Assembly (NCBI GenBank): GCA_021793235.1
Contig: JAJYTD010000018.1
Coordinates: forward strand, 1 to 64,000
Source of the DNA: Actinomycetes bacterium
Lineage (GTDB): Bacteria > Actinomycetota > Actinomycetes > Streptosporangiales > Streptosporangiaceae
Direction of reading: 5' to 3'
Length of the DNA: 64,000 bases
Part shown: one piece after another, positions 40,002-64,000 of the stretch
Layout: each line of letters opens with the position of its first letter
Numbering within the stretch: the stretch's first letter is position 1
Program-made: the position numbers and the translations under genes
Notes under the pieces: model-generated
Databases searched by the model: none
Told to the model about the DNA's origin: nothing
What the model saw: only the letters and a program-made list of their open reading frames with translations

Positions 40002-40026
40002 CGACGTCTCCCTTCGCGTCCCATGG

Positions 40027-41863: not shown

Positions 41864-41880
41864 CCGCGCTTCACCCTCAA

Positions 41881-42627: not shown

Positions 42628-42714
42628 AGCGAGCTGTCTCCTAACGTCTGGATCGCGCCGGTCGTGCGCTTCCGGGGCTGCTGGCCTGCGCACGTACCTC
42701 GTACCCCGATGGCC

Positions 42715-43659: not shown

Positions 43660-43686
43660 CGGCCAACTCCTCTTACTTCAGTTCAG

Positions 43687-43998: not shown

Positions 43999-44429
43999 CA
44001 GTCCGCCCGATCTCCGCGCGCCCGCACAGCGGCCGGTGTGTCCGCCCCCTTGCGGCGGCGTGCCGCGTTCTTCCGGGGACGCATCGCCGAAGCGAGGGCA
44101 CCATCGAGCTGCGCGGCCAGCGTGTCGTATCCCAAGGACGCGGCCAAAGGTCTGGCCCGCACTACCAGTAGGCTACCCGCCGGCAGGCCCCGGACCCGCT
44201 CCCGCATCAGGTGCCGGAGACGGCGCTGCACACGCTTGCGCACCACGGCGTTTCCAACGGCCTTGCTTACGATGAACCCCACCCTTGGCGGGTCGGGATC
44301 CGCCTCGTTCCCTGTGGCAGATGGCGCGACGTAGACGACACCGAGCGCGTCTCTGTTCGCACGCTTTCCCGTGCGCATCACCAGACCGAACTCGGCGCTG
44401 CGCCGCATGCGATTCCGTGGCGACAACAT
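43998..44429 (-). CDS. rnpA: Ribonuclease P protein component
   Basis: This 143-residue basic protein starts at the ATG at 44429 ([10 protein letters not shown]). It contains the RNase P signature ([19 protein letters not shown]). It assists the RNA subunit in maturing tRNA 5' ends. It follows rpmH with a hairpin between and overlaps yidD. Confidence 0.95.
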
Positions 44430-44453
44430 CGTCGGTCCCCGAACACAAGAAGA

Positions 44454-44483
44454 GGGCCGGCTGCCGATGAGGGCAGCCGGCCC
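44454..44483 (-). terminator. Hairpin between rpmH and rnpA
   Basis: GGGCCGGCTGCC (44454-44465) pairs with GGCAGCCGGCCC (44472-44483) around a 6-nt loop. It lies between rpmH and rnpA and probably lowers rnpA expression relative to L34. Confidence 0.65.
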
Positions 44484-44505
44484 GGAGGTCAATGAGTCGT
44501 GGCGG

Positions 44506-44649
44506 CTACTCGCTCACGGTCAGCCGCACGCGCCCCTTTTTGCGGCGCGCGGCAACGATCGCGCGTCCAGCACGGGTCCGCATGCGCAGCCGGAAACCGT
44601 GGACCTTCGCGCGACGCCGGTTGTTCGGCTGGTACGTACGCTTGCTCAC
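44506..44649 (-). CDS. rpmH: Ribosomal protein bL34
   Basis: This gene encodes 47 residues from the GTG at 44649: [21 protein letters not shown], then [17 protein letters not shown]. This is a full-length L34. It is divergent from dnaA, as in most bacteria, and leads the leftward rnpA operon. Confidence 0.96.
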
Positions 44650-45347
44650 TGCTGGGCTCCAGGGGCATGTCAGAAAGTACTACGGCACGACCCCTTCGCC
44701 GTGGGGCCATGGTCTCTCGCGCTCATCGACGTCACGGGAACAATCGGCGGTTCCAGGACCTCGCCTGTTCACACAGACGGATAGCGACTCAAGCACAAAA
44801 ACGATATGGGCTGTCCGGGCACCGGTCAAATCAACCACGCCCCGGCCAGGGAGGCCGCAGCGTTGCTGTCCACAGAAACCCCAGCTTGTGGACAGCATGA
44901 TCTCCACAGGCTGTGTATCTTCCCCACCCACCCCTAAGCTGTGGATAACCTCAGAGGCGGGAATCACTTCCCCAGAGGGTCGCCGATACGCCGAAGTGCT
45001 TCCTCCGCACTCTTCATACACCTGCATGAACTGGGGATTGTGGATAACTCAGCCATCGCTGCGAACATCTGAGAGGCTGTGTACAAACCAGTGCACAACA
45101 TGTGGACGACCTTCCGGAGCTGTGGAAGATCGTCCGCAGCCGAAGCCCCCGTGGTCTCTCGACAGCACGACGTTGTACACACAGAGTCCACAGGAACACC
45201 CCAGGTTGCCCACAGGCTGTCACAGGCGGATCAACTGCGGTCACCGCCTTCGGGCCAACCGGGACAATGGTCATCCGGCCCGGTCGGCCAGATGACCGCT
45301 GCAAGAGCAGGAAACCGTGAGAAGGGGACGAACCATGGCAGGTCACC
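44650..45347. promoter_or_regulatory. rpmH/dnaA divergent region with DnaA boxes
   Basis: No gene is supported in these 698 bp. DnaA-box-like 9-mers are scattered through it: CTGTCCACA (44866), TGTGGACAG (44887), TGTGGATAA (44940 and 45039) and TGTGGACGA (45101). This fits autoregulation of dnaA by its product and the promoters of rpmH and dnaA. Confidence 0.7.
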
Positions 45348-47099
45348 GTGTCTGAGGCACAGGTCAACCTCGCAATGGTGTGGTCCAGCGTGCTGGACAG
45401 CCTCGACAACAGCACGCTCCCTCCCCAGCAACGAGCGTGGCTGCCACAGACGCGACCGCTGGGACTGATCGAGGACACCGCGCTGCTCGCCGCCCCGAAC
45501 GAATTCGCCAAGGAGATCCTCGAAACGCGGCTCCGTCCCGCCATCAGTCAGGCGCTCTCCTCCGCGCTGGGTCGGGAGATCCGCGTGGCCGTCACCGTCG
45601 ACCCCGGTGCTGTGCAGCCCGCACCCCCCAAGGCCACGTCCGCTCCTGCCCCGACCGAGTACCGGCCCGGGCAGCCCGAACCCCCGGAACCGGCCGATGC
45701 GCCGAGATGGTCGGGGCGATCGTGGCAGCAGCCGTCCTTCATGCCCGAGGACGTTCCTGCTCCCCCCGCGGCCACGGAGGCCGTACCTGATGGCCATTTC
45801 GGGCACCCCGAGGCCGCGGCCGGTGACGACCTGCTCGCGCCCCGGCCGGACCAGGATGCCAATGCCCGGTACCAGGGGGGCCAGGAGCAGCAATGGGGCG
45901 CGCCCAACCGCTGGGAGGCCCCATCATGGAAAAGCCCGGACGCCTCCCAGTTCCCCCCCGCTCCCCCGGCCGCCGAAGAGACGCCCGACCAGGTGCCTCC
46001 CCTGCCGAGCCCCAGCGCGCCCGACACCTCCGGCGGCAACCAACCGCACACGTCCACCGAGCCTGCGCGGCTGAACCCGAAGTACACCTTCGAGACCTTC
46101 GTCATCGGAGCGAGCAACCGCTTCGCTCACGCGGCCGCGGTCGCCGTCGCCGAGGCGCCGGCGAAGGCGTACAACCCCCTGTTCATCTACGGCGGGTCCG
46201 GACTGGGCAAGACCCACTTGCTGCATGCCATCGGCCACTACGCCCAGCGCCTCTACGACGGCGCCCGGGTGCGCTATGTCAGCTCCGAGGAGTTCACCAA
46301 CGAGTTCATCAACTCGATCCGCGACGGCAAGGCCGACGGTTTCCGTCGCCGCTACCGGGACATCGACGTCCTCCTCGTCGACGACATCCAGTTCCTGGAG
46401 AACAAGGAGCAGACGCAGGAGGAGTTCTTCCACACGTTCAACACGCTGCACAACTCCAACAAGCAGATCGTGATCTCCAGTGACCGGCCGCCCAAGCAGT
46501 TGGTCACCCTGGAAGACCGGCTGCGCAACCGCTTCGAGTGGGGCCTGATCACCGACGTCCAACCTCCGGAGCTGGAGACCCGGATCGCGATCCTGCGCAA
46601 GAAGGCGGCGCAGGAAGGGCTGGCCGCACCGCCGGAGGTTCTGGAGTTCATCGCCAGCAAGATCTCCACCAACATCCGTGAGCTAGAGGGCGCGCTCATC
46701 CGGGTGACGGCCTTCGCCAGCCTCAACCGGCAATCGGTGGACCTGCATCTGACCGGGATCGTATTGAAGGACCTGATCCCCGACGATGCGGGCCCGGAGA
46801 TCACAGCGTCGGCGATCATGGCGCAGACAGCCTCGTACTTCGGGCTCAGCACCGAGGATCTGTGTGGAACCTCGCGTTCTCGGGTCCTGGTCACCGCACG
46901 GCAGATCGCGATGTATCTGTGCCGGGAACTCACCGACCTGTCATTGCCCAAGATCGGCCAGCAGTTCGGCGGCAGGGACCACACCACGGTGATGCACGCG
47001 GACCGCAAGATCCGATCCCTCATGGCCGAGCGGCGGTCCATCTACAACCAGGTCACCGAACTCACCAATCGGATCAAGCAGCAGTCGCGGAACATCTGA
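45348..47099 (+). CDS. dnaA: Chromosomal replication initiator DnaA
   Basis: This 583-residue initiator starts at GTG 45348. Domain I is residues 1-90. A Pro/Ala/Gln-rich domain II of about 150 residues makes it longer than enteric DnaA, as is usual in actinomycetes. Domain III has Walker A G-G-S-G-L-G-K-T at about 282-289 and Walker [10 protein letters not shown]. Domain IV has the box-reading motif [11 protein letters not shown]. It binds oriC directly downstream and sites upstream of its own gene. Confidence 0.98.
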
Positions 47100-47460
47100 A
47101 TCTTTTTTTGGCGATGCTCAGCGAAGTTATCCCCAGGCACCCCCCTTATTCTGTGGATAACCCGTGGATAACCCTGAGGACAACCCGGCTGTTCCCGTGG
47201 AAAAGTTGGGGACGGCTTGTGGGCGGACGGGCGCCCGTCTCCCACGGCTCGCCACGGCCCTGTGGGTATCCCGTGGATAACCCGTGGACGAGCGGTGGAT
47301 ATCCGGTGGACAGACTGTGGGGACAGATCCGGCGTCCACAGCCCTGTGGTTTTTCCCCAGCCTTTGCCCACAAGCCCGGTGGATAAAAATATCCGGCCCC
47401 ACCTGCGTAAATAGAGGTTATCCACACTGTCCACAGCCCCTACTACTACTACGCCTCTTT
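47100..47460. other. Chromosomal origin of replication oriC
   Basis: The dnaA-dnaN spacer is packed with DnaA boxes. Perfect TGTGGATAA lies at 47152 and TTATCCACA at 47418-47426. Close variants lie at 47127 (TTATCCCCA), 47163, 47272, 47283, 47378 and 47427 (CTGTCCACA). An AT-richer stretch occurs at 47379-47415. The tract CTACTACTACTAC (47440-47452) follows the last box and a short GC run. This is the standard place and make-up of an actinobacterial origin. The remaining 206 bp to dnaN show nothing else. Confidence 0.93.
47440..47452. other. TAC-repeat tract resembling a DnaA-trio element
   Basis: The plus strand reads CTACTACTACTAC, so the opposite strand carries four 3'-GAT-5' units. DnaA-trio elements are such 3'-GAT-5' repeats placed next to a DnaA box, and they guide DnaA onto single strands during opening. 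Here boxes end at 47435 and GCCC precedes the repeats. Function is inferred from the pattern. Confidence 0.6.
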
Positions 47461-47666
47461 TCCTCACTCAGTGGCTTGGTAAATCGGCTCTGGCCCCAAT
47501 CTGTGGACGGGCGACGGCCCGAGTGCCTTCGGGTGTGGTGGGGCAGCGTCGAGGGCTGAATCCGGGTACCGTGTGAACCCGTCCCCGTGATGCATCCGGT
47601 GACACGGCAGCGTGCTGCCGCCCCACCGGTCACAGGGCCCAGGTTTCGAGGAAAGTGAGTCGGATA

Positions 47667-48806
47667 GTGAAGTTCCGGGTTGAACGCGACGTACTGGCCG
47701 ACGCCGTCGCCTGGACCGCCCGCAGCCTGCCGGTGCGTCCGTCGGTTCCCGTCCTTGCGGGAATGCTGCTGGACGCAAGCGAGGACGACGGGCGGCAGCG
47801 GCTGAAGCTGTCCAGCTTCGACTACGAGGTCTCTGCCCAGGTATCGGTGGAGATCGAGATCGAGGAGCCGGGAACCACCTTGGTCTCGGGGCGACTTCTC
47901 GCCGAGATCACCCGCAACCTTCCTCCCCAGACTGTGGAGGTCAGCACCGACGGCGCAAAGGTCGTCGTCTCCTGCGGCAGCGCGAAATTCACGCTCATCA
48001 CGCTGCCTGTGGAGGATTACCCGGCCCTTCCCGAGATGCCTCAGCTCACCGGTGCCGTCGGCAGCGACGCGTTCGCCGCGGCCGTTGGCCAGGTCGCCGT
48101 CGCGGCCGGCCGCGACGACACCCTGCCGATGCTCACCGGCATCCGGGTGGAAATCGAAGGCGACACCGTTACGCTCGCCTCCACTGACCGCTACCGGCTC
48201 GCCGTGCGGGAGCTGGCGTGGAAACCGGAGAACCCCGACCTGTCCGCGGTCGCCCTGGTCCCGGCCAAGACCCTTGCTGACACCGCGAAGTCACTGACCA
48301 ACGGTGCTGAGGTGGCGATCGCCCTGTCCGGTACCGAGAGCGGCGAGGGCATGATCGGCTTCGAGGGCGGCGGTCGGCGCACCACCACCCGGCTCCTCGA
48401 CGGAGAGTTCCCCAAGTACCGCGCCCTGCTGCCCGATTCGTTCAACTCCGTGGCCGAAGTGCAGAAGGCGGAGTTCATCGAGGCGGTGAAGCGTGTATCG
48501 CTGGTCGCCGAACGCAACACCCCCCTGCGTCTGGCCTTCAGCGAGGGCCAACTGGTATTGGAGGCGGGGACCGGCGACGAAGCGCAAGCCGTCGAGGTCC
48601 TGGACGCCACGCTGGAGGGCGACGAAATCCAGATCGCGTTCAACTCCGCCTTCCTGATCGACGGCCTCAACGCGATCGACTCCGACATCGCCCGGTTGCA
48701 GTTCACGACTTCCACGAAGCCCGCGATCATCACAGGCAAACCCGCTGAGGAGGAGGCCTCCTCCGACTACCGGTACCTGATCATGCCGGTCCGGCTCTCC
48801 AGTTGA
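47667..48806 (+). CDS. dnaN: DNA polymerase III beta sliding clamp
   Basis: This 379-residue clamp starts at GTG 47667 (M-K-F-R-V-E-R-D-V-L-A), matching relatives. An in-frame GTG at 47655 is an alternative but sits too close to the GAGGAAA site. Three clamp domains are seen, with T-L-P-V-E-D-Y-P-A-L-P, L-A-S-T-D-R-Y-R-L-A-V-R-E and the C-terminal Y-R-Y-L-I-M-P-V-R. It tethers the polymerase to DNA. Confidence 0.97.
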   Translation: MKFRVERDVLADAVAWTARSLPVRPSVPVLAGMLLDASEDDGRQRLKLSSFDYEVSAQVSVEIEIEEPGTTLVSGRLLAEITRNLPPQTVEVSTDGAKVVVSCGSAKFTLITLPVEDYPALPEMPQLTGAVGSDAFAAAVGQVAVAAGRDDTLPMLTGIRVEIEGDTVTLASTDRYRLAVRELAWKPENPDLSAVALVPAKTLADTAKSLTNGAEVAIALSGTESGEGMIGFEGGGRRTTTRLLDGEFPKYRALLPDSFNSVAEVQKAEFIEAVKRVSLVAERNTPLRLAFSEGQLVLEAGTGDEAQAVEVLDATLEGDEIQIAFNSAFLIDGLNAIDSDIARLQFTTSTKPAIITGKPAEEEASSDYRYLIMPVRLSS

Positions 48807-48859
48807 CCGACGATCGGCCCGTCCACGTATCCACAGGCGGCAGAGGGGGATGTCACGCC

Positions 48860-49765
48860 ATGCAACTCGGTATGGTCGGTTTGGGCAAGATGGGCGGCAA
48901 CATGGCCCAGCGGCTTCGCGACAAAGGGCATGACGTCGTCGGTTTCGACTTCGATCCCGCGGTACGCGATGTCGACAGCCTTTCCGGACTCGTCGAGCGG
49001 CTGAGCGCACCCCGCGTCATCTGGCTGATGGTGCCCGCCGGCGAGCCCACCGCCGCGACCATCACGGAGCTGGCCGGGCTCCTGGAGCCGGGTGACCTCA
49101 TCATCGAAGGCGGCAACTCCCACTACGTGGACGACCGCCACCGTGCCGAGCAGCTCGGGCAGCGCGGTATCGGCTACGTTGACGCCGGGGTCAGCGGTGG
49201 CGTGTGGGGGCGCCAGAACGGCTACGGAATCATGGTCGGGGGTACGGCGGAGAACGTCGCCCGCGCTGAGTCCATCTTCGAAGCGCTCACCCCGGACGGC
49301 GGCGGAGGATACGTGCACGCCGGCGGCGTGGGCGCCGGGCATTTCGTGAAGATGGTGCACAACGGTATCGAGTACGGCATGATGCAGGCGTTCGCCGAAG
49401 GCTATGAGCTGATGGCCGCATCCGACGTGGTCGATGATGTTCCGGGAACCTTCGCCAGCTGGCGCGAGGGCACGGTCGTCCGCTCCTGGCTCCTGGACCT
49501 GCTTGTCCGCGCACTGGAGGAGGATCCCGACCTCGACAGGATCCGCGGGTACGCACAGGACTCCGGTGAGGGCCGGTGGACCGTCCAGGCCGCCGTCGAC
49601 CACGCGGTCCCAGCCCCGGTCATCACCTCAGCACTGTTCGCCCGATTCGCCTCACGGCAGGAGGACAGTCCTGCCATGAAGGTGATCGCGGCGCTGCGCA
49701 ACCAGTTCGGCGGACATGCCGTCACCGAGGCTGCCGACGGCTCCGTGCAGGATTCGCAGAGCTGA
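48860..49765 (+). CDS. gnd: 6-phosphogluconate dehydrogenase (decarboxylating)
   Basis: This 302-residue enzyme of the short Gnd type starts at ATG 48860 ([15 protein letters not shown]). The catalytic region has [10 protein letters not shown] and [13 protein letters not shown]. It makes ribulose-5-phosphate and reduced cofactor in the pentose phosphate pathway. Its place between dnaN and recF is conserved in actinobacteria. A frame extension to 48803 lacks homology. Confidence 0.96.
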
Positions 49766-49787
49766 GGACGGCTCTGAAGAGTCGGTG

Positions 49788-49801
49788 GTTTCACGTGAAA
49801 C
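49788..49801. promoter_or_regulatory. parS site between gnd and recF
   Basis: Exact GTTTCACGTGAAAC within a 24-bp palindrome (49783-49806), 23 bp past the gnd stop and 30 bp before recF. Confidence 0.95.
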
Positions 49802-49830
49802 CACCGGCCGGTGACAATAGGGAAGGTCAG

Positions 49831-50961
49831 ATGTACGTATCGCACCTGCAACTGGCCGACTACCGGTCCTATGAGTCGGTGAACCTGGAGCTGGAGCCCG
49901 GGATCAGTACGTTCGTCGGCCCCAACGGCCAAGGAAAGACCAATCTCGTTGAGGCCATCGGATACGTCGCTTCCCTGGGCAGCCACCGGGTAGCGACCGA
50001 CACCCCCCTGGTGCGCAAAGGTGCCGAGCGCGCGGTCGTGCGGGCGGCGATCACAAAGGACGGCCAGCGGGCCGTCATCGAACTGGAGATCAATCCGGGA
50101 AAGGCCAACCGTGCCCGCCTCAACCGCGCACCGGTCACCCGGCCGCGCGAGGTTCTCGGCTTCCTGCGCACCGTGCTGTTCGCTCCCGAGGACCTCGCGC
50201 TGGTCAAGGGAGATCCCGGGGAACGCCGCAGGTTCCTCGACGAACTCCTCGTCGCCCGCGCGCCCCGGTTCTCCGGTGTCCGTTCCGACTACGACCGCGT
50301 ACTGAAGCAGCGCAACGCCCTGCTGAAGTCGGCCTCGGCTCAGTTCTTCAAACGCCGTGAACCGGACCTGGCCACCCTTGATGTCTGGAACGACCACCTC
50401 GCCACCGCGGGAGCCGAACTCCTGTCAGCCCGGTTGGAATTGGTGGCCGAACTGCAGCCGCTGGCCGCCAAGTCCTACAGCGAGCTCACCACGTCGGGTG
50501 GTCCGCCGGTGCTGCAGTACCGAAGCTCTGCCGCGCCTGATGAGTCCGACCTCCCGGCTGACCGTGCGCGGCTTGCCGACCTTCTGCGCGAAGCGCTGGC
50601 CGAAGTCCGCGCGCAGGAGCTGCAGCGCGGGGTGAGCCTGGTGGGGCCGCACCGCGATGATCTCGTGCTGAGCTTGGACGATCTTCCCGCGAAGGGGTAC
50701 GCCAGTCAGGGCGAGTCATGGTCATGCGCTCTGGCGCTGCGGCTCGCCGGATTCGAACTGCTGCGGTCCGACGGTGACGATCCGGTACTGATCCTCGACG
50801 ATGTCTTCGCCGAGCTCGACGCCGAGCGCCGCCGCCGGCTGGCCGAGCACGTTCGGCACGCCGAGCAGGTCCTGGTCAGTGCGGCGGTGGCTGAGGACAT
50901 CCCCGGTGAGCTGCGGGGGGCCCGGTTCCGTGTCCAGGAAGGGGCGGTCGAGCGTGAATGA
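49831..50961 (+). CDS. recF: DNA repair ATPase RecF
   Basis: This 376-residue SMC-like ATPase starts at ATG 49831 ([14 protein letters not shown]). Walker A is G-P-N-G-Q-G-K-T at about 30-37. The ABC signature region is [15 protein letters not shown], and Walker B is [11 protein letters not shown]. It loads RecA at gaps with RecO and RecR. Confidence 0.97.
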
Positions 50962-51442
50962 CAACGGCCGTCCGCAGGATGGGGGCGAGCAGGCCGGACA
51001 AAGCGGCGTGGAACTGGCGCGCCAGGCGCTCGCCCAGGCGAGGGCTGCGGCCAAGGAGAGAGGTGCCGTTCCGCAGGGGCACACCCGGCGGGTGCGTCGC
51101 GGCCCGGTCCGCTCGCGAAACGAGCCGCAGTTGTTCGGCGACGCCGTCCGTGCGTGGCTGGTGGAGCACGGTTGGCAGGAACAGGTCGCCATCGGCGGTG
51201 TCTTCGGGCGCTGGTCCGAGATCGTCGGTGAGTTCAACGCCCAGCACCTGAAGCCCGTCTCCTACGAAGGCGGTGAACTGGTGATCGCTGCCGATTCGGC
51301 GACCATGGCGGCACACGCTCGCGCCATGTTGCGCGACCTTGTCCGGCGGATCAATGAGGAATTGGGGCACGGCACCGTGCACAGCATCAAGATCCAGGGG
51401 CCGGGGCGCAGGCGTGGACTCGGGCCGCTACGGGCCGGTTGA
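50954..51442 (+). CDS. DciA-like DUF721 protein
   Basis: This 162-residue protein starts at GTG 50954, overlapping the recF end by 8 bp. The first 60 residues are a basic, flexible arm ([13 protein letters not shown]). The DUF721 domain follows with [24 protein letters not shown] and T-M-A-A-H-A-R. DUF721/DciA proteins load or assist the replicative helicase in bacteria without DnaC. Its location beside recF and gyrB is conserved. Confidence 0.9.
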
Positions 51443-53771
<2,329 letters not shown>

Positions 53772-53826
53772 GTCCGTGCACTCCCCGACGGCACCGAATG
53801 ACCCACCAGAAAAGGATCGACATCCA

Positions 53827-56397
53827 GTGACGGATGCGAACACCCCAGACACCACCGAGGAAACCGACCCCCGCCGCCAGCGGGTAGAACCCATCGACAT
53901 CCAGGTCGAGATGCAGCGCAGCTATCTCGACTACGCGATGTCGGTCATCGTCGGCCGCGCTCTGCCCGATGTCCGCGACGGCCTCAAGCCCGTGCACCAG
54001 CGGGTGCTGTACGCCATGTACGACGGCGGGTACCGGCCCGACCGCGGCTACTTCAAATGCGCCCGTGTCGTCGGCGACGTCATGGGGAACTACCACCCGC
54101 ACGGCGACAGCGCGATCTACGACACCCTCGTACGGCTCGCCCAACGGTGGTCCATGCGGATGCCGCTGGTCGACGGCAACGGCAACTTCGGCTCGCCCGG
54201 AAACGATCCCGCAGCGGCCATGCGCTACACCGAGTGCAAACTCGCCCCGCTGGCCATGGAGATGCTCCGGGACATCGACAAGGAGACCGTCGACTTCCGG
54301 CCCAACTACGACGGGCGCTCCCAGGAACCTGTGGTGCTGCCGGCGCGGTTCCCCAACCTGCTGGTGAACGGGTCCGCCGGTATCGCGGTCGGTATGGCGA
54401 CCAACATTCCGCCGCACAACCTGCGCGAGGTCGCCGACGGCGTCAACTGGTACCTCGCCAACCCCGACGTCTCGGATGACGAACTGCTCGATGCGCTGAT
54501 CGAACGGATCAAAGGCCCGGACTTCCCCACCAGCGGGCTCATCGTCGGTCGGCGCGGCATCGAGGAGGCTTACCGCACGGGCCGCGGCTCCATCACGATG
54601 CGCGCCGTTGTCGAGGTCGAAGAGGACTCACGCGGCCGCCAGACCCTCGTCGTCACCGAACTCCCCTACCAGGTCAACCCGGACAACCTCGCACTCAAGA
54701 TCGCCGAACTGGTCAAGGACGGCAAGGTCACCGGCATCGCCGACGTGAAGGACGAGAGCAGCGGCCGCACCGGCCAGCGGCTCGTCATCGTCCTCAAGCG
54801 CGACGCCGTGGCCAAAGTCGTGCTGAACAACCTGTACAAGCACACCCAGCTCCAGGAGACGTTCGGCGCCAACATGCTGGCCCTGGTCGACGGCGTGCCC
54901 CGCACCCTCCGACTCGACCAGTTCATCCGGCACTGGGTCGACCACCAGATCGATGTCATCATTCGGCGTACGCGTTACCTGCTGCGCAAGGCCGAGGAAC
55001 GCGCCCACATCCTGCGCGCGCTGCTCAAGGCCATCGACCGGATCGACGAGGTCATCGCGCTGATCCGGGCCAGCGCATCGGCGGACGACGCCAAGACCGG
55101 CCTCATGGGGCTGCTGGAGATCGACGATGTCCAGGCCCGCGCCATCCTGGACATGCAGCTCCGCAAGCTCGCCGCCCTGGAGCGCCAGGCTCTCACCGAC
55201 GAGTTCGATGAGCTGATGGCCCAGATCCGGGACTACAACGACATCCTCACTTCTCCCCAGCGCCAGCGTGCCATCGTCCGCGACGAGCTCACCGAGATCG
55301 TCGAGAAGTACGGCGACGACCGCCGCACGCACATCATCCCGTTCGAGGGTGATATGCGCATGGAGGACTTCATCGCCGAAGAGGACGTCGTCGTCACGAT
55401 CACCCGTGGCGGCTACGCCAAACGCACCCGGTTGGACAACTACCGGGCGCAGAAGCGCGGCGGCAAGGGGGTACGCGGCGCCCAGCTCAAGCAGGACGAC
55501 ATCGTCCAGCACTTCTTCGTGAGCACCACCCACAACTGGATCCTGTTCTTCACGAACAAGGGGCGGGTGTACCGCACGAAGGCCTACGAACTGCCTGAAG
55601 CCGCGCGCGACGCCCGCGGACAGCACGTGGCCAACCTGCTGGAGTTCCAACCGGACGAAGAGATCGCGCAAGTCATGGCGCTGCGCGGGTACGACGACGC
55701 GCCGTACCTGGTGTTGGCCACACGCGAAGGCCTGGTGAAGAAGTCGCGGCTGGAGGACTTCGACTCCTCCCGTTCGGCCGGCATCATCGCGATCAACCTG
55801 CGCGAAGACGACGAGCTGATCGCCGCCCGCCTGGTCTTTCCCACCGACGACCTGCTGTTGATCAGTAGCGACGCACAGGCCATCCGGTTCCCGGCCTCCG
55901 ATGAATCGCTGCGTCCCATGGGGCGCGCCACCAGTGGTGTCATCGGTATGCGGTTCCTGGAGGGCGACTACCTGCTGAGCATGGACGTCATCCGCGAGTC
56001 CGACGGGCCCGCGGACGTGCTCGTGGCCACCGAAGGCGGCTACGCCAAACGCACCCCCGCCGACCAGTATCCGGTGCAGAACCGGGGAGGCAAGGGCGTT
56101 TTGACGGCGAAGGTCGTGGAGGCCCGCGGCAAACTCGTCGGCGCCCTCATGGTCTCCCCCGAAGAGGACGAAGTCTTCGCGATCACATCTACCGGCGGGG
56201 TGATCCGTACCCGGAGTTCGGAGATCAAGCAGTCGGGGCGGGCGACGATGGGGGTCCGGCTGATGAACCTCACTAACGGCAACCACGTGGTCGCGATCGC
56301 CCGCAACGCCGAAGCCGATGACGATGACGAGGACGGCGCGATCATCGCCGAGGAGGACGGCACCGCGGCGGACGGCGCGGAGGGTTCCGAGCCCTAG
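53827..56397 (+). CDS. gyrA: DNA gyrase subunit A
   Basis: This 856-residue subunit starts at GTG 53827. The breakage-reunion domain has the catalytic Tyr in A-A-M-R-Y-T-E-C. The quinolone region is [12 protein letters not shown], with Ser and Asp at the two main resistance positions, the susceptible form. The C-terminal pinwheel carries the GyrA-box-like Q-K-R-G-G-K-G-V and four further blades. An acidic tail (D-D-D-D-E-D-G) ends it. It lies 55 bp after gyrB. Confidence 0.98.
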
Positions 56398-56424
56398 ACT
56401 CCTCGGTAAGCCATGACAAAGGTT

Positions 56425-56452
56425 GCGGAGGGCATAGAATCGCCCTCCGCAC
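56425..56452 (+). terminator. Hairpin after gyrA
   Basis: TGCGGAGGGC (56425-56434) pairs with GCCCTCCGCA (56443-56452) around an 8-nt loop, 28 bp past the gyrA stop. It precedes the DUF3566 gene by about 140 bp and may reduce read-through. Confidence 0.7.
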
Positions 56453-56590
56453 GCCCCATCGGCCGGTTCTCGGGACCCCCATCGGAGCCCGCCTGGTACA
56501 CAGCCCGGCATGTGCCCTCAGCGTCCACGGGGAGCGGTCGCCTATCCCCACAATCCGGTTCACCCATCACATGGAAAGTCCAGCGGTAAC

Positions 56591-57385
56591 GTGGCTATGT
56601 CTGACAACACGCAACGGGAATCCGCTGCTCTTGAGGCGTCCGAGGCATCCGAGAACCCCGACGTGCCAGCTGAGGGCGGCGATACGAGCAAGGAAGAAGC
56701 GGCCGAGGGTACTGCCGCGGCGGTCGACGAGCCCGGCGAGGAATCCGCGGAGGAGCCCGGCGACGAGCCTGCGGAGGGGGCCGCGAGGGAGCCGGCAACG
56801 GACTCGGTGGCCGAGTCCGTCGGGGAGTCGGCGGATCAGCCCGGGACCGAGTCGGCTCCCGAACCGGACAACCGGTCACTGAGCGAGCCGCTCACCGACT
56901 CGACGACGGGCTCCGCGGAGGAAGCAACCGCTGAGCAGGGGGGTGTGCCGATGGCGGCGCAGCAGGGGCAGAGCCAGGAGCAAGAGACTGCTGTCCAGGC
57001 CACGAAATCCGCACGCAAGGCCCACTTGACGGTGAGCAGGGTAGAGCCGTGGTCGGTGATGAAGTTCAGTTTCGTCATCGCCCTGGTGTGCTTCATCATC
57101 CTGTTCGTCGCCGTGGCGGTGATCTATGCGATCCTGTCGACCCTCGGTGTCTTCGATGCGGTGACGGATCTGATCACCTCCCTCACCGAGGGCGGCGAAG
57201 AAGAGGATGTCATCCTCAACCCGGAGAGCTGGTTCTCCCCGGCTCGCGTGCTCGGTTACACGGGCCTCATCGGTGCGCTGAACATCATCCTGATCACCGC
57301 CCTGTCCACCGTTAGCGCGATGCTCTACAACCTCGCTGCCGACCTGGTCGGCGGCGTCGACGTAACCCTCACCGAGTCGGAGTGA
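56591..57385 (+). CDS. DUF3566 membrane protein
   Basis: This is about 264 residues from GTG 56591; an ATG at 56597 is equally possible. Residues 1-145 are highly acidic and disordered (runs of E-E-P-G-D-E-P). The DUF3566 domain follows, with V-S-R-V-E-P-W-S-V-M-K-F-S-F, a first helix (I-A-L-V-C-F-I-I-L-F-V-A-V-A-V-I), and a second helix (L-I-G-A-L-N-I-I-L-I-T-A). The gene follows gyrA in nearly all actinobacteria. Its function is unknown. Confidence 0.92.
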   Translation: MAMSDNTQRESAALEASEASENPDVPAEGGDTSKEEAAEGTAAAVDEPGEESAEEPGDEPAEGAAREPATDSVAESVGESADQPGTESAPEPDNRSLSEPLTDSTTGSAEEATAEQGGVPMAAQQGQSQEQETAVQATKSARKAHLTVSRVEPWSVMKFSFVIALVCFIILFVAVAVIYAILSTLGVFDAVTDLITSLTEGGEEEDVILNPESWFSPARVLGYTGLIGALNIILITALSTVSAMLYNLAADLVGGVDVTLTESE

Positions 57386-57392
57386 TCCACAC

Positions 57393-57423
57393 GGGCCTCG
57401 CTCCCCTCGACCGAGCGAGGCCC
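57393..57423 (+). terminator. Terminator after the DUF3566 gene
   Basis: GGGCCTCGCTC (57393-57403) pairs with GAGCGAGGCCC (57413-57423) around a 9-nt loop, 8 bp past the stop. Confidence 0.8.
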
Positions 57424-57549
57424 GAACACTCGGGAGAGGCGCTAAACTAGGAGGTGAAGAGGGGCACGGCCATGGTTCTCCTCGGCCTTCCACCCGGAAG
57501 AACCGGTTCGCCCCGCACTGCCGCATACGGTAGAGTTTTCCTGGAACAA

Positions 57550-57623
57550 GGGCGTATAGCTCAGTCGGTTAGAGCGCATCCCTGATAAGGATGAGGCCCG
57601 TGGTTCAAGTCCACGTACGCCCA
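57550..57623 (+). tRNA. tRNA-Ile, anticodon GAT
   Basis: GGGCGTA at 57550-57556 pairs with TACGCCC at 57616-57622. The anticodon stem-loop CATCC-CTGATAA-GGATG gives GAT. The T-loop GGTTCAAGTCC is standard, and the gene is 74 nt. No CCA is encoded. Its 3' end faces the integrase of the inserted element, so the 3' part of the gene is the likely attachment core. Confidence 0.97.
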
Positions 57624-57639
57624 CCCCCATAAGCAGCGC

Positions 57640-57673
57640 AAAGGCCTCCATCGGATTTCCGGTGGAGGCCTTT
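57640..57673. terminator. Hairpin between tRNA-Ile and int
   Basis: AAAGGCCTCCA (57640-57650) pairs with TGGAGGCCTTT (57663-57673) around a 12-nt loop that is itself partly paired. It sits between the tRNA and the int stop and can end transcripts from either side. Confidence 0.7.
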
Positions 57674-57702
57674 GACAGCAGTAGTGACAGCAACACGGCT
57701 GC

Positions 57703-58914
57703 TTACTCGTCCTCGTCGGGGTCGCCGTCGCCTTCACTGAAGAGCGTCCCGCCCAGTCGGCCGAGCCCTTCCCGCTGTGTCGCTTCGTCGCTATGGGTGT
57801 AAATCTCCATGGTCACCGAGATCCGGCTATGCCCGAGGATTTCCATTGCGTCGCGCGGCGCGACCCCGGACCGCTTGAGCATCGAGGCCACCGAGTGCCG
57901 AAGGTCGTGCAGCCGGAGAGGCCGCATGCCCGCCGACGCCGATAGCCGCTCGAAGCTGCGGGACAGGCTGCGCGGCTGGATCGCCCGACCGGTCCGCGTG
58001 GTGAACACGAGGTTCGTACCGCCCCACGCCTTCCCAGCGGCGCGACGCCTCTCCGCCTGCCAGTCCGCTTGCTCGATCAGAGCATCCCGAGCCCATCGCA
58101 GCAGCGGCAGCGACCGCCGACCGGCGTGCGTCTTCACCTCCACCAGCTCAAGCGAGCCGTCTACCCGCTGGATTTGCCGACGAATCGACATGACGTCCTG
58201 TTCCAGGTCGACGTCATCCCACGAGAGCCCGAGCACCTCACCGCGCCGGAGGCCGTAGAGGAGCATCAGCACGAAGGCCGGATACAGGTGGTGGTTCCGC
58301 GCGTGGTCGAGGAACCGCTTCGCCTCGTCGGCGTTCCAGGGCTTGAGCCGCTCGGGCGACTCTGCCGGAAGAGTGACGAGCCGAGCGGGATTGACCGTGA
58401 TCAGCTCTTCCCGCATGGCGCGCGTTAGCGCTGAACTGAGGGTCGTCCGCATGGCATGCACCTTGGCCACCGAGTCGCCGGCCTTCAGCCGCCCGTTGAG
58501 GAACGTCTGAATCTTGGCGACCCGCAGCCGGTCGAGGCGCTGACTGCCGAGATTCGGCTTCAGGTACAGGCGAACCGTCTGCTCGTACTTGGCGTAGGTC
58601 GTCGCGCGGACCGAGGGCTTGGCGACGTGCTCCAACCAGTAGTCGAGGTACTCCCCCAGCTTCCACGGACGGTCCGGAACGGCGACGTTGCGGTTGCTGT
58701 TCTCCTGGATCTTGGTGAGCTTGTCGTACGCCTCCTTGCGGGTACGGGCGTAGCGCTGGACGCGCTTCAAGGAGCCGTCCGAGGCGAGTACGTAGGCTTC
58801 CGCGACCCATCGGCCGTCCTTGCGCTGGAAGACCGTGCCCTCTCCGTTGGCACGTCCGCGCTTGCCCTTGCGCCCTTCCGGCTCGTCGGGGGATGCGGAG
58901 TTGCGCGCGGCCAT
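57703..58914 (-). CDS. int: Tyrosine-type site-specific integrase
   Basis: This 403-residue recombinase has an N-terminal arm-binding part (G-S-L-K-R-V-Q-R-Y-A-R-T-R-K-E-A) and a SAM-like core (W-L-E-H-V-A-K-P-S-V-R-A-T-T-Y). The catalytic domain is complete: R223 in G-L-R-R-G-E, H336-D-L-R339, H362 in L-G-H-S, and Tyr372 in M-E-I-Y-T-H. It reads toward the tRNA-Ile 3' end, 79 bp away. It shares a base with the xis stop (TGATG). It should integrate and, with Xis, excise the element. Confidence 0.96.
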   Translation of the reverse strand: MAARNSASPDEPEGRKGKRGRANGEGTVFQRKDGRWVAEAYVLASDGSLKRVQRYARTRKEAYDKLTKIQENSNRNVAVPDRPWKLGEYLDYWLEHVAKPSVRATTYAKYEQTVRLYLKPNLGSQRLDRLRVAKIQTFLNGRLKAGDSVAKVHAMRTTLSSALTRAMREELITVNPARLVTLPAESPERLKPWNADEAKRFLDHARNHHLYPAFVLMLLYGLRRGEVLGLSWDDVDLEQDVMSIRRQIQRVDGSLELVEVKTHAGRRSLPLLRWARDALIEQADWQAERRRAAGKAWGGTNLVFTTRTGRAIQPRSLSRSFERLSASAGMRPLRLHDLRHSVASMLKRSGVAPRDAMEILGHSRISVTMEIYTHSDEATQREGLGRLGGTLFSEGDGDPDEDE

Positions 58915-59108
58915 CAGGCGGCTTCCTCTCGTAGCTCGGAGATGAAGGAGTCGAGGGCTTCTGTCGGTATGCGGCGGTCGCGCCCGATCTTGACCGACTC
59001 CAGACGGCCGGAGCGGATCAGCTCATAGACCTTCCAGCGCCCGAGGCGCAGCACGTCCATGACCTCGGGGACAGTCAGCAGGCGTCGCGTGGTCGGAAGG
59101 GGGGTCAT
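58914..59108 (-). CDS. xis: Excisionase (MerR-like helix-turn-helix)
   Basis: This 64-residue protein has the AlpA/excisionase fold: L-T-V-P-E-V-M-D-V-L-R-L-G-R-W-K-V-Y-E-L-I-R-S-G-R-L-E-S-V-K-I-G, with R-I-P at the end of the wing. It lies directly before int, and its ATG overlaps the stop of the initiator gene. It is the expected directionality factor. Confidence 0.92.
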   Translation of the reverse strand: MTPLPTTRRLLTVPEVMDVLRLGRWKVYELIRSGRLESVKIGRDRRIPTEALDSFISELREEAA

Positions 59109-60796
59109 GCGGCAGCCTCTCTAGTTGCCGAAAGATCGTCGGATCGCTGTTGCCGAGCGGCGTCGAGCTGGGCGCGGCGTTTGAGTGCTTCGCCGACCGC
59201 GCGGAGTAGACGGTGTTCGCGCGGCGGGACGTCGGGGTCGGTCGGCCGGGCGAGTTCCCAGGCGTGATCGCCGGAGGAGACCGAAGGGAGCGCGGGAGCG
59301 GCACCGTCGCCGTGCGCCTCGTCGGGGTCGGCGTCGGGATCCACGCCCAAGGCGTCGAGGACCCAGCGCAGCCGGTCCGCTTTGTGGTCGGCGACGGTCT
59401 TGCCGGACCACTTGCGCGAGACGAGGACGCGGCGCCCGGCGTAGCCGAGGTGTTCCCGCCGGTGTGCTTTGGAGCGGCAGAAGCCGGGGGTCATGCCCGC
59501 TTTGGCGCCGTCCGGCTGGATGCCGTACCGGAGCCAGTTCGCGCACTTCGGGGAGCACGGTTCGTACCGCAGGGCTTCCACGAGCCGTTCGACGTGGCGG
59601 GCTTGGGCGTCGGTGTCGACGGCGTGGCATTCGGCGATGTCCTTGGTGAGGTACTTCGCCAGGTAGCGCACGCACCGGTCGGCATCCTCGGTGCCGGCCA
59701 CCACCCCTTTGGCATCGACCTGCGGCCCGAAGCGGACCACGTGCATCGGTTCCGCGTCCGGATCGGCGTCGAGGGCATCGAGCGCCTGTTCCCAGGTGGG
59801 CAGCACTTCCCCGGTGGCCATGTCGACATAGCTCCCGATCGACTCATCCCAGACCGGCAGGTTCTCGCCCGCATAGACCGCCTCGTCGGCCTGCGGCCAC
59901 CACACCTGGTGATAGGTCGCGGCCGCGATCTGGCGCAGCTCGGCACGCGGGATGGTGCCCCGCGTGGCCATGTGCAGGTGCGGCGCCAGGCGGCGTTGCG
60001 GTTCGACGGTGGCGAAGTACTGCACGTCGAACCCGGCCACGCGGCGCAGGTTCTGCACGAACCGGTCGATGAGCTTGGAGAAGTGCAGCGCGTCCCGAGC
60101 CGCCCGCCGGTAGTCGTACGTGGACGGATCCACCGGCGTGCCGTCGGGCTTCACCCGCCCGTAGGTGTCGCAGGTCAGCGTGAGGAACAACGACGGCCGG
60201 AAGACGCGGCCCGTGGCCGGGTCCTCGTAGGAGCGCCCGACCGTGGTCTTGGCCATCTGCCGCTTGGGCAGGTCCGGCGCGTCCTGGCGCCGCTTGGTCG
60301 AGCGCACCCGACGCGACGAGCCCGACGAGGAGGAGCCACGGGAGACGGACCCGCGCATGCCGGATGCGGTGATCTCGGCGTCGAGGTCGGCGATGGCCTG
60401 ATCGAGCGCGGCCACCTCGTCGGGATCGGCCCCGCCGGACTCCACCAGGGCGTCACGTTGCGCGGTGACCACGGCGCGGCGCTCCACCCACGCCCGCTGA
60501 ACGTCGGACGGGCGATCCGGCGTGACGGTCGGATCCTCGGCGAGGTGCCAGCCCTCTTCACACTGACTCCGGCGGATGGACCGCTTGCGCCCTGCGCAGG
60601 ACGGGCACCGGGACTCCAGCGTCGAGCCGCATGGAACGTCCACAATCTCGGTTTGGCCTGTGCTGATGTCGGTACGCCGTAGGGAGACGGGCCGGATGCA
60701 CACGCCCTTGTCGGCGGCGATCTGCTCGGCCACCTCACGCGCCAGCGGTTGCGCCTGCCGCTCGGCCCGCGTGGACTTGCCGGTCGGGGTCGGCAT
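59105..60796 (-). CDS. RepSA-type rolling-circle replication initiator
   Basis: This 563-residue protein has an N-terminal Cys motif (R-C64-P-S-C67-A-G-R-K). The HUH pair is H273-L-H275 in A-P-H-L-H-M, followed by the candidate nicking tyrosines Y378 and Y382 in R-Y-L-A-K-Y-L-T-K. Between them is a Ser/Arg-rich insert at 148-168. The RepSA family starts rolling-circle replication of AICEs such as pSAM2 after excision. It overlaps the translocase gene upstream and xis downstream. Confidence 0.93.
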   Translation of the reverse strand: MPTPTGKSTRAERQAQPLAREVAEQIAADKGVCIRPVSLRRTDISTGQTEIVDVPCGSTLESRCPSCAGRKRSIRRSQCEEGWHLAEDPTVTPDRPSDVQRAWVERRAVVTAQRDALVESGGADPDEVAALDQAIADLDAEITASGMRGSVSRGSSSSGSSRRVRSTKRRQDAPDLPKRQMAKTTVGRSYEDPATGRVFRPSLFLTLTCDTYGRVKPDGTPVDPSTYDYRRAARDALHFSKLIDRFVQNLRRVAGFDVQYFATVEPQRRLAPHLHMATRGTIPRAELRQIAAATYHQVWWPQADEAVYAGENLPVWDESIGSYVDMATGEVLPTWEQALDALDADPDAEPMHVVRFGPQVDAKGVVAGTEDADRCVRYLAKYLTKDIAECHAVDTDAQARHVERLVEALRYEPCSPKCANWLRYGIQPDGAKAGMTPGFCRSKAHRREHLGYAGRRVLVSRKWSGKTVADHKADRLRWVLDALGVDPDADPDEAHGDGAAPALPSVSSGDHAWELARPTDPDVPPREHRLLRAVGEALKRRAQLDAARQQRSDDLSATREAAA

Positions 60797-62220
60797 CAGT
60801 CCCCCACCCCCGCAACGGCAGGTTCACCGGCCATAGCGTCGATGTCGTCATCGGAGACGAACGCGGCCCGCACCCGCACCGGAACCGGCGAGCCCTCCAG
60901 CTTCACGAACGCCACACCGGGAAGATCCGGGTCGATCAGGTGGGCGTTGGCACCGCGATCCCGCGCGCCCTCCCCGAGGACCATGTCCACCTGCGACGCC
61001 TCGTCCAGCCGCAGTGCGATCTTGTCGGGGAACAGGTTGCGCAGGTTCAGCACCTCTTTGCGCGGGTCTTGCAGCGCGGCCAGGACGCAGAACCCGACGG
61101 ACCGGCCCTGACTGGTCAGTGTCGCGATGGCGTTCTCCGCCCGCCGGCGGATGTCCCGATCAGGGTGGTAGGCGGTCAGGAACGCCACCTCGTCCAGCAC
61201 CACCACCACGAACGGATCCCGCGTACTGGGGACGTGCACCCGCTGGCGGCCCGCGTAGCGTTCGGCGCGTTCCTGCATCGCCGCAACCGCCGCCTCCAGC
61301 AGCTCAACCGCCTCGTCGGCCGCATCGGCATACCGGGCGAACAGAGCCCGCCCGAAGGACAGTTCCATCCGCTTGGGGTCGATCGCCCACACCTGCACCG
61401 TGCCCGCGTGGATGGCCGCAGTCATGGCGCGGATGGCCGACCACAGCACCGAACCTTTGCCCGCGCCGGTGACCCCGACCGTGAGCACGTGGGTTCCGTG
61501 CAGCCGCAGGTACCACGGTTCGCCGTCCTCGCACCGGCCCACCGGCAGCCCCGACAGGTCCGGCTCGTCGGGCACCGGTAGCGCCTCGATCGGATCGGCG
61601 AGGGTGTCACGGCGCGGGAACTCCAGCACCACATCCCGTGGTCCGCGCACTTCGACCCGGCAAGAGGGAGCCCCGAAGCCGTGCGCCAGCTCGGCCACCC
61701 GGTTCTCGAAGTCGGCCGGAGCGGTGCCGGCCACGAGGCGCACCCGCACCCGATCCGCCCAGGCCGAGCAGCTCACGCCGCGAATCTGCGGAAGGTACTG
61801 CCGTTCAAGGTAGGACTCGGCCAGCCCGGAGACGACCAGGACGGGTTGCCAGTGCCGCCGGTAGACCCACAGCCACCGCCAGGCGGCCAGCGCCCGCAGT
61901 GCCACACGGGCCTTGAACGAGTCCGGCCAGCGCCGCCACCACACCAGTAGCCCGAGGTCGACCACCGTCCACATCACCGCCAGCCCGAGCCAGCCGGTCA
62001 GCACGTAGGCCGCAATCGAGACCGCCACGACGGCGACGGAGACGGGGAACTGGACGGGCAGCAGGACGAGCAGGCGCAGGAAGCGCCAGAGCCACCCGGT
62101 GAGGATGAAGATCCCCGGCGTCTCCACCACGGGCGTGGTGAAGCGCACCGCCTGTGCAGGCACGGGCGCGGTCGGCCGCTGGACTTGGGAAGCGCCCGCT
62201 TTAGAGTTGCCCAGCATCAC
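60796..62220 (-). CDS. FtsK/SpoIIIE-type DNA translocase of the AICE
   Basis: This 474-residue protein has two or three membrane helices at about 42-95. The motor domain has Walker A G-V-T-G-A-G-K-G-S at 249-257, then W-A-I-D-P-K-R-M-E-L, and Walker B V-V-V-V-L-D-E-V-A-F-L near 325. Such Tra proteins move double-stranded DNA between mycelia in actinomycete conjugation. The start is GTG 62220 or the ATG at 62217; both overlap the previous stop. Confidence 0.92.
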   Translation of the reverse strand: MMLGNSKAGASQVQRPTAPVPAQAVRFTTPVVETPGIFILTGWLWRFLRLLVLLPVQFPVSVAVVAVSIAAYVLTGWLGLAVMWTVVDLGLLVWWRRWPDSFKARVALRALAAWRWLWVYRRHWQPVLVVSGLAESYLERQYLPQIRGVSCSAWADRVRVRLVAGTAPADFENRVAELAHGFGAPSCRVEVRGPRDVVLEFPRRDTLADPIEALPVPDEPDLSGLPVGRCEDGEPWYLRLHGTHVLTVGVTGAGKGSVLWSAIRAMTAAIHAGTVQVWAIDPKRMELSFGRALFARYADAADEAVELLEAAVAAMQERAERYAGRQRVHVPSTRDPFVVVVLDEVAFLTAYHPDRDIRRRAENAIATLTSQGRSVGFCVLAALQDPRKEVLNLRNLFPDKIALRLDEASQVDMVLGEGARDRGANAHLIDPDLPGVAFVKLEGSPVPVRVRAAFVSDDDIDAMAGEPAVAGVGD

Positions 62221-62468
62221 CGACCACCCCCGCTCGCGTCGTCGGCGCGGAGTGCGGCCAGTTCGGCGCTAGCCTCGTCGGCCACGACACGGGTTTCGGC
62301 ATCGTCGGTCTGGTCGGCGATGCGCCCGAGGATGGAGGACTTCCAGGCCAGCAGCGCCGCGTCCGGACCGGTACGAGAGTCGTTGAAGACGGTGTTGCGG
62401 TGGGCGCGCAGGGCGTCCATGAACTCGGCGATCTCGCGCGGGCTGACCCGCGTTGACAGCTCGGACAT
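62217..62468 (-). CDS. Small AICE protein of unknown function
   Basis: This 83-residue soluble, helical protein begins M-S-E-L-S-T-R-V-S-P-R-E-I-A-E-F-M-D-A-L. An AGAGGTG lies upstream, and its stop overlaps the translocase start. It has no membrane helix, so it is not an SpdB-type protein. No named family is recognised. The coupling suggests a role with transfer. Confidence 0.75.
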   Translation of the reverse strand: MSELSTRVSPREIAEFMDALRAHRNTVFNDSRTGPDAALLAWKSSILGRIADQTDDAETRVVADEASAELAALRADDASGGGR

Positions 62469-62576
62469 ACTGAACAGACACCTCTTCTGTGGTCTTTGGC
62501 GAGTTCACGAGGGGTTGAAGGGGCGGCCGAAGGTGTTGGCGCACCAGGCCGCTCCGCTTTGTGTTCAGCGGACGAT

Positions 62577-63014
62577 TTAGCCCGCATCCTTGGATCCCGA
62601 GGCACCCGCACCGGCAACGGCCGGAGCCTTGCGGGAGGCGGCGCCGTTGCCGCCCGGCGTCTTCACCCCGCGTGCCCGAAGCGAGTACGCGACGCGGGGA
62701 CGCCTCCCGGAGTCGTCCACGTAGGGCATGACCGACATCTGCTCGAACTCGACGGGCCGGAAGGGCAGGCCGGGAACCTCGTCGGGCAGGGTCGGGCAGT
62801 GCTCGGCGGCCACCTTGACCTTCACGCTCTTTGCCTTGCCGCGGGCTTCGGGGTCAGCGTCGATCACGTCCACCGCCCACAGCGGCAGTCCCGACACCTT
62901 GTCCATCTGCGGACGCTTGGTCTCGAAGTCGGTAATGGGCTCCACCCCCAGCGCGTAGGCGCCGTGCGGGAACACCGTCCCGAACTCCACCGGCAGCGCA
63001 CCCTGAATCGCCAT
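62577..63014 (-). CDS. Pra-like replication/integration/excision activator
   Basis: This 145-residue protein matches the AICE activator family. It starts M-A-I-Q-G-A-L-P-V-E-F, then V-F-P-H-G-A-Y-A-L-G-V-E-P-I-T-D-F, L-P-L-W-A-V-D-V-I-D-A-D-P-E-A and P-F-R-P-V-E-F-E-Q-M. The C-terminal 30 residues are Gly/Ala/Lys-rich. In pSAM2, Pra activates the replication, integration and excision genes. It lies upstream of those genes here, behind a structured leader (63059-63117). Confidence 0.85.
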   Translation of the reverse strand: MAIQGALPVEFGTVFPHGAYALGVEPITDFETKRPQMDKVSGLPLWAVDVIDADPEARGKAKSVKVKVAAEHCPTLPDEVPGLPFRPVEFEQMSVMPYVDDSGRRPRVAYSLRARGVKTPGGNGAASRKAPAVAGAGASGSKDAG

Positions 63015-63058
63015 GCTTCTACCTCTCTACGGCCCGGTGATCAGGCCGGGCATACGAA

Positions 63059-63117
63059 AGCGTGTGGCCTGTCGCCCCTTCCAATGCTGGAAGGCGAGCG
63101 GCGACAACCCACACGCT
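63059..63117 (-). promoter_or_regulatory. Three-step hairpin in the leader of the Pra-like gene
   Basis: AGCGTGTGG (63059-63067) pairs with CCACACGCT (63109-63117). Inside, TGTCGCC (63070-63076) pairs with GGCGACA (63100-63106), and innermost CCTTCC (63077-63082) pairs with GGAAGG (63089-63094). All three stems are exact and nested. The structure lies 45 bp upstream of the start codon and would form in the mRNA leader. Confidence 0.65.
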
Positions 63118-63138
63118 AACCCGTACTTTTAGTTGTGT

Positions 63139-63174
63139 CTAGTAGTTTGAATACTAGTTCGTACTCACAGTACG
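63139..63174. promoter_or_regulatory. Operator-like inverted repeats upstream of the Pra-like gene
   Basis: CTAGTA (63139-63144) and TACTAG (63152-63157) form an AT-rich palindrome with a 7-nt spacer. CGTACT (63160-63165) and AGTACG (63169-63174) form another with a 3-nt spacer. They lie at the end of the regulator gene, where the promoter of the Pra-like gene should be. Confidence 0.55.
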
Positions 63175-64000
63175 CCCATACGTCTGGCCAGCCCTTGCAG
63201 CGCCGGTCCCGGAGGGTCCTGAATGGTCAGCAGATCCCCGATGGCTTGGCGCACCAGCGGATGACTGCGCACCTGCTCAGGCGTGATCTGCTCAGCCCGC
63301 TCCAGCGCGGAGACGGCCGTATCGGCGTTGCGCCGCTGGAGGTGAGCGCGCGCCACGTCGATGAGGAACCGCCCTTGGCGCTCGGTCGACAGGCCCGAGG
63401 TGTCGATACCGTCAGCCGCCCGCAGAGCGACCCCGGCGTCTCCCAGTTCCACCGCAACCGCCACCTCGTGCAGGGACACGTTGGTCGGCCCGAACTCGGT
63501 GTTGTAGTCGTTGCGATCGCCCCCCAGCCGCTCAGCGACCGACCGCGCCTGTGCGATGTTGCGATAGGCGGTGGTGGCCTCGTTGCGCCGAGCCGCAGCG
63601 ACGGCGCGTTGCAGGGTCAGCGCACCGAACAGCGACATCGCCTCCAACTCGCCCCGATCGGCCAGGGGAGACAGCGCCTCACACGAGGTGCCGGCGGTCG
63701 CCTCCACCTGGTCGAAGTAGCCCGCACCCTGGAAGGTCAGGCACAGCCGGAACTCACCGGCCGCCATGAGCAGGGGCTCATCGGCGCGTTCGGCCGCCGT
63801 GATCGCCCGATCGGCCGCGATCCAGGCCGCTTCGAACTCACCGAGCTTGCTCAGCGCCGACGAGCACGCCTGATACGTGGTGTTCAGCAGCCGGAACAGC
63901 GGCACCCGCTCACCGTTGGGCACCGACCGCGCGGCCGCCTCCAGCTCCGGCACGAGCACTTCGAGAAGTTCGGTCAGCTCCACATAGCGGCTGGCATGCG
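63165..64000 (-). CDS. TPR-type transcriptional regulator, N-terminus beyond the window
   Basis: The visible 278 residues are helical repeats: L-L-E-V-L-V-P-E-L-E-A-A-A, S-A-L-S-K-L-G-E-F-E-A-A-W-I-A-A-D-R-A-I, and R-Q-G-R-F-L-I-D-V-A-R-A-H-L-Q-R-R. This matches the C-terminal part of XRE/TPR regulators of actinomycetes. The frame is still open at position 64000 (A-S-R-Y-V-E-L-T), so the helix-turn-helix is outside. It sits where pSAM2-like elements keep their control genes. Confidence 0.8.
   Translation of the reverse strand, partial: HASRYVELTELLEVLVPELEAAARSVPNGERVPLFRLLNTTYQACSSALSKLGEFEAAWIAADRAITAAERADEPLLMAAGEFRLCLTFQGAGYFDQVEATAGTSCEALSPLADRGELEAMSLFGALTLQRAVAAARRNEATTAYRNIAQARSVAERLGGDRNDYNTEFGPTNVSLHEVAVAVELGDAGVALRAADGIDTSGLSTERQGRFLIDVARAHLQRRNADTAVSALERAEQITPEQVRSHPLVRQAIGDLLTIQDPPGPALQGLARRMGVL

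Follow-up and report, generated by a model that had tools for sequence, protein, structure and literature searches.

Background

AICEs of the pSAM2/RepSA type carry the genes int, xis and repSA in that order, together with a gene for an FtsK-like transfer protein, and integrate by means of a tyrosine integrase at the 3' end of a tRNA gene, which for pSAM2 itself is a tRNA-Pro gene. A further relative in gene organization is pMR2 of Micromonospora rosaria (NC_006910), which has an int-xis-rep block and an FtsK protein. One tRNA gene may accommodate more than one such element. Passages of a study of a Streptomyces population describe several AICEs and a traB-less remnant lying between direct repeats at a single tRNA-Arg gene (PMC9513070), and parts of a second report describe tandem AICEs at one tRNA gene, namely Fean5518/Fean5534 and Sav3708/Sav3728, the Frankia pair of which excises both singly and together (PMC3218068).

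Here we describe an AICE that follows the tRNA-Ile(GAT) gene beside gyrA in an actinomycete draft genome of 4.8 Mb in 119 contigs. The stretch analysed (hereafter the window) comprises positions 1-64,000 of contig C81, whose total length is 65,866 bases. The host gyrA is 92% identical to that of Streptomonospora mangrovi and is also close to those of Nocardiopsis and Thermobifida. We regard it as probable that the AICE occupies an accretion site for stacked elements at tRNA-Ile, that in part of the sequenced DNA this tRNA is joined instead to an older element (element B, on contig C80), and that the AICE did not itself separate tRNA-Ile from tRNA-Ala.

The AICE and its insertion site

The features on which the description rests are listed below by window position, with the strand where it was assigned.

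45348-47099, dnaA, by Pfam match
47655-48806, dnaN, by Pfam match
56510-57385, DUF3566 gene, upstream of tRNA-Ile(GAT)
57499-57625, 127-base k-mer common to the window and the end of contig C80, where the assembly forks
57550-57625, plus strand, tRNA-Ile(GAT), its 3' part the attachment site (ARAGORN)
57581-57625, plus strand, 45-bp att core, a direct repeat that reaches from the anticodon region to slightly beyond the 3' end of the tRNA; second copy at C80 8658-8702, minus strand (exact comparison)
57581-57700, 120-bp block made up of the core and the adjoining 75 bp of the att region on the element side, with full identity to the C80 copy of the att site
57639-57674, terminator-like hairpin between tRNA-Ile and int, with 17-nt arms that are 94% complementary
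57703-58914, minus strand, int, tyrosine recombinase of 403 aa (PF00589, PF14659, motif check)
58914-59108, minus strand, xis, excisionase-type HTH protein of 64 aa (PF12728, TIGR01764)
59105-60796, minus strand, repSA-type rolling-circle initiator of 563 aa (PF20199, E 3e-100; HLH and YLAKY motifs)
60796-62220, minus strand, FtsK/SpoIIIE-like DNA transfer protein of 474 aa (PF01580 over cut-off; weak, sub-cut-off match to a TraB model)
62217-62468, minus strand, small ORF with no family match
62577-63014, minus strand, small ORF with no family match
63165-64000, continuing to C81 64379, minus strand, XRE-family regulator of 404 aa (HTH_31)

The element that begins directly after tRNA-Ile is an ordinary AICE of the RepSA/pSAM2 type, seen in part. 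A site-specific integrase with the PF00589 domain and its motifs, an excisionase gene beside int (TIGR01764), a replication initiator of the kinds found in such elements (RepSA, RepAM or Prim-Pol; here PF20199) and an FtsK/TraB-like translocase (PF01580, over cut-off) are all present. Only 77 bp lie between tRNA-Ile and the near end of the int ORF. Insertion at the tRNA 3' end is visible on the tRNA side, the far end being unassembled and the core recurring on C80 behind element B. The int, xis, repSA and FtsK-like tra genes, the two small genes and the regulator were all identified, and the placement of the site about 10 kb from oriC in the preliminary description agrees with the roughly 10.2 kb measured from tRNA-Ile to the dnaA-dnaN gap; in this neighbourhood gyrB was assigned from its sequence only and gyrA by way of relatives. 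With this AICE, the integration sites compared here come to include an accretion site at tRNA-Ile/gyrA, next to oriC.

At the residues that we take to be catalytic, the integrase has its HxxR, H and Y motifs, Rep its HxH and YxxKY motifs, and Tra its Walker B motif. Walker A in Tra reads GKG rather than GKS/T; since the pMR2 protein and a Nonomuraea homologue carry GKG too, this was not scored as damage. The Rep matches the Pfam RepSA family at E 3e-100, whereas its match to the stricter NCBIfam RepSA model is weak (27.6 bits against a cut-off of 700), and it is 52% identical over 94% to the Rep of pMR2. Unlike this AICE, pMR2 has an integrase that is only about 24% identical and a larger number of small genes separating rep from tra; unlike pSAM2, the AICE targets tRNA-Ile. 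Among plasmid records only distant relatives were retrieved, and all 16 integrase matches in IMG/VR are likewise distant. A search for transfer-origin repeats returned just two-copy families of the kind expected by chance.

The right side of the AICE

Past the window the AICE carries an antibiotic-biosynthesis-monooxygenase-like gene, a gene for a histidine-kinase-like ATPase and then a DUF6414-like gene, whose Pfam match falls just below cut-off. This last cargo gene is interrupted at about position 65742 by a multicopy IS, within which C81 ends at 65866, 1.9 kb past the window. The view that all genes are intact is not confirmed at this side: the regulator runs on to 64379, the contig stops in the IS that cuts the cargo gene, and the right att site is unassembled. 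The truncated DUF6414-like protein found no match among plasmid records, and its C-terminal half, for which the family match is weak, was not found elsewhere in the genome.

The IS end at C81 65742-65866 occurs at 12 places in the genome and is flanked by TAA or TTA. All 11 of the other contigs with the IS start carry 123-127 bases of it, in each case at a contig end, which implies that the IS was collapsed in an assembly with a k-mer of 127. All 12 matches to the contig terminus represent this same end, so that extension of C81 through the IS did not reach its far side, and the IS proper is absent from the contigs found. Because the IS itself is unassembled, short contigs are probably missing from the assembly, and the right end of the AICE may be among them. 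A search of the whole assembly for attR and attP with a 28-bp piece of the core, allowing up to 3 mismatches, returned three known places only.

Contig C80: element B, another core and a remnant of element C

Contig C80 (16,100 bases) meets the window at tRNA-Ile. Its minus-strand end matches window positions 57499-57625 exactly, the shared 127 bases consisting of 51 bases upstream of tRNA-Ile and the entire tRNA, and the two contigs part at the first base thereafter. From the tRNA onward C80 carries element B, which starts with an integrase fragment spread over two frames by a frameshift; the match is to residues 262-378 of an N. salina ORF of 393 residues, which likewise lies downstream of tRNA-Ile. 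The further genes of B encode a NUDIX protein, a thymidylate-kinase-like protein, a B12-binding radical-SAM protein, an HhH-GPD-like protein (below cut-off) and an XRE regulator. No replication or transfer gene was seen among the B proteins scanned. The radical-SAM and thymidylate-kinase-like genes (C80 11942-14046 and 14059-14505) match, at modest score, both parts of PDC-M51A/B, a candidate defence pair in PADLOC, and the adjoining NUDIX gene matches PDC-S07 in the same resource, again at modest score.

The second 45-bp core lies 7.3 kb into C80, behind element B, and it is here, not on C81, that the core recurs beyond the AICE's own end. It sits inside a 120-bp block that is 100% identical to window positions 57581-57700, and past this block the next 200 bases align with 160 identities. 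This DNA forms the left end of a sister element, C, with a truncated integrase of which only about 61 residues match. The complete identity of the att block beside an adjoining integrase 3' end that is about 80% identical between the AICE and C could reflect conserved arm sites or gene conversion. Beyond C the contig holds ordinary genes, e.g. for a short-chain dehydrogenase, an HxlR regulator and a carbamoyltransferase. Comparison of C80 with the loci of 80 relatives gave integrase-like or isolated weak matches only, which did not tie its far end to a conserved flank, and the downstream region of Streptomonospora mangrovi compared with the host's own genome gave short matches of 69-92% identity and no shared segment.

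Together, the AICE, element B and element C, with copies of the 45-bp core both at tRNA-Ile and between B and C, have the layout of an accretion array, of which the AICE-B junction is unseen. Of the 65 relatives whose flank after tRNA-Ile extends to 3 kb or more, 7 have an integrase-like ORF that begins within 3 kb of the tRNA, showing that the site is used repeatedly. Judged from these comparisons, tRNA-Ile is an accretion site for stacked elements, of which the AICE is the tRNA-proximal and probably the newest member; the order of arrival would have been C, then B, then the AICE. Such an array matches the AICE accretion and the tandem AICEs described in parts of PMC9513070 and PMC3218068. 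It differs from the tRNA-Arg case in passages of the former in its tRNA and host and in being split over contigs, and from the tandem AICEs in passages of the latter in that excision was experimental there and is inferred here.

An assembly fork and the state of the AICE

At tRNA-Ile the assembly has a single way in and two ways out, which for a de Bruijn graph means that molecules joining tRNA-Ile to the AICE and molecules joining it to C80 were both present in the DNA. A second way in would require duplicated upstream DNA; a search of the host's own genome with window positions 40000-57400 yielded no such copy, just paralogues and a dispersed repeat some 167 bp long, to which all the near-identical short matches belong. 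This repeat, at 41907-42075 in the window, accounts for 40 of the 49 rows of the search, and ten of these are 160 bp or longer, with 96-99% identity.

By this argument the sequenced DNA included AICE-free tRNA-Ile junctions, which is indirect evidence for excision or a mixed population. In the scheme we favour, the AICE integrase would insert into the 3' half of tRNA-Ile(GAT), with the 45-bp core keeping the tRNA whole; the decayed older element B would lie behind the AICE, followed by the second copy of the core and then by the left end of element C, whose integrase resembles that of the AICE at its 3' end; and in part of the DNA tRNA-Ile would be joined straight to B, as fits Int/Xis excision in some cells, biologically the simplest explanation of the fork. 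Transfer would fall to the FtsK-like protein. The earlier judgement that the AICE is probably active gains indirect backing from the fork and is weakened by the missing right end and the IS-cut cargo gene.

Two strains or subclones sequenced together, one carrying the AICE and the other lacking it, could have been assembled with no excision in culture at all, and two near-identical clones would give a fork equal to that of excision. The absence of attR and attP from the assembly suits such a mixture. For an AICE that simply moves in and out, attR and attL would be expected at equal frequency; the absence of attR and attP weighs against a simple in-and-out equilibrium unless a short right end was lost with the small contigs. 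Estimated contamination is only 0.31%, however, and no second version was seen in the 17.4 kb before tRNA-Ile, so that only an almost identical second strain would fit; we consider a mixture unlikely. The AICE might instead be stranded, with an IS insertion or IS-mediated deletion having removed its right end and attR, and with the tRNA-B junction contributed by cells that never carried it. This would accord with a contig ending in an IS that cuts the weakly matching DUF6414-like gene, the C-terminal part of which was not recovered, and with the lack of attR, but small contigs such as that of the IS seem to be missing and a short right end could have gone unreported with them, and we hold stranding to be equally doubtful.

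Returning to excision as the favoured cause, we propose, tentatively and with little confidence, that the AICE was leaving at the time of sequencing, so that a site about 10 kb from oriC alternates between the tRNA-AICE and tRNA-B states, and that the AICE may carry B out in cis, because the second att site has the same 120-bp block of core and arm as the AICE end. If so, B moving with the AICE would take along a candidate phage-defence pair, the PDC-M51A/B-like genes. The remaining interest of the locus lies in this possibility and in the indirect sign of mobility. More generally, the fork argument offers a cheap means of detecting AICE-free junctions in draft genomes and could help to sort live AICEs from those that are merely annotated.

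The tRNA-Ile and tRNA-Ala genes

The preliminary description proposed that the AICE had inserted between adjacent tRNA-Ile and tRNA-Ala genes, a pair said to be usual in actinobacteria within a few dozen bp, and had split them. This was assessed across the class with 57 loci fetched from 60 genomes (the host's own genome, one without a match and one with a tRNA-Ala match only were left out). L252 was dropped, having been fetched without its tRNA-Ile, and 56 loci have gyrA before tRNA-Ile. Distances were measured on the fetched DNA; the initial class-level search had listed tRNA-Ala poorly. A tRNA-Ala(TGC) gene lies within 100 bp of tRNA-Ile at 5 of the 56 gyrA-linked loci, at 100-500 bp in 26 and, in 8 cases, 1-5 kb away (once on the opposite strand), and was not seen in the available flank, which is under 2 kb in two cases, at the other 17. 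The pair is therefore common beside gyrA (31/56 within 500 bp), which speaks for a split, although a spacing as short as a few dozen bp occurs at a minority of the loci.

In the host's own lineage the evidence points the other way. tRNA-Ile follows gyrA in 75 of the 80 gyrA relatives, none of which has tRNA-Ala within 1 kb (the nearest, a Streptomyces, has it at 1.05 kb), and no tRNA-Ala lies downstream of tRNA-Ile at any of the 15 host-group loci with 10 kb of flank (L015, L017-L019, L021-L029, L031 and L078). The gene is about 57 kb past tRNA-Ile in N. eucommiae, on the assumption of a circular record, and about 117 kb past it in N. metallicus, both Nocardiopsis. ARAGORN found no tRNA-Ala in the window; the host gene, tRNA-Ala(TGC), is at C41:4449, about 4.4 kb downstream of an apparent 5S rRNA end recognized by eye; five relatives have the same genes upstream of their tRNA-Ala. 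Since the genes are separate in relatives and the host tRNA-Ala keeps its neighbourhood, the pair was most likely already apart before the AICE arrived, and a split by the AICE is very improbable. The idea of an element splitting a tRNA pair is corrected accordingly: tRNA-Ala lies elsewhere in the relatives examined, the outcome named beforehand as speaking against it. Judged by title, no report was found that joins gyrA, tRNA-Ile, tRNA-Ala, Actinobacteria and an integrase.

Across the class, no clear link emerged between an integrase in the gap and a split pair. Among loci with at least 3 kb, an integrase is present at 1 of 23 with a short gap, 1 of 8 with a long gap and 1 of 15 with no tRNA-Ala seen, and two of these three integrases lie past tRNA-Ala; long gaps at the class loci are thus not explained by extant integrases. 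At loci L225-L281 the gap is either below 500 bp or above 1 kb, with none between. Within the host group, L024 comes from a record titled Glycomyces fuscus, yet its gyrA is 89% identical to the host's Nocardiopsis-group gene, and the label may be wrong.
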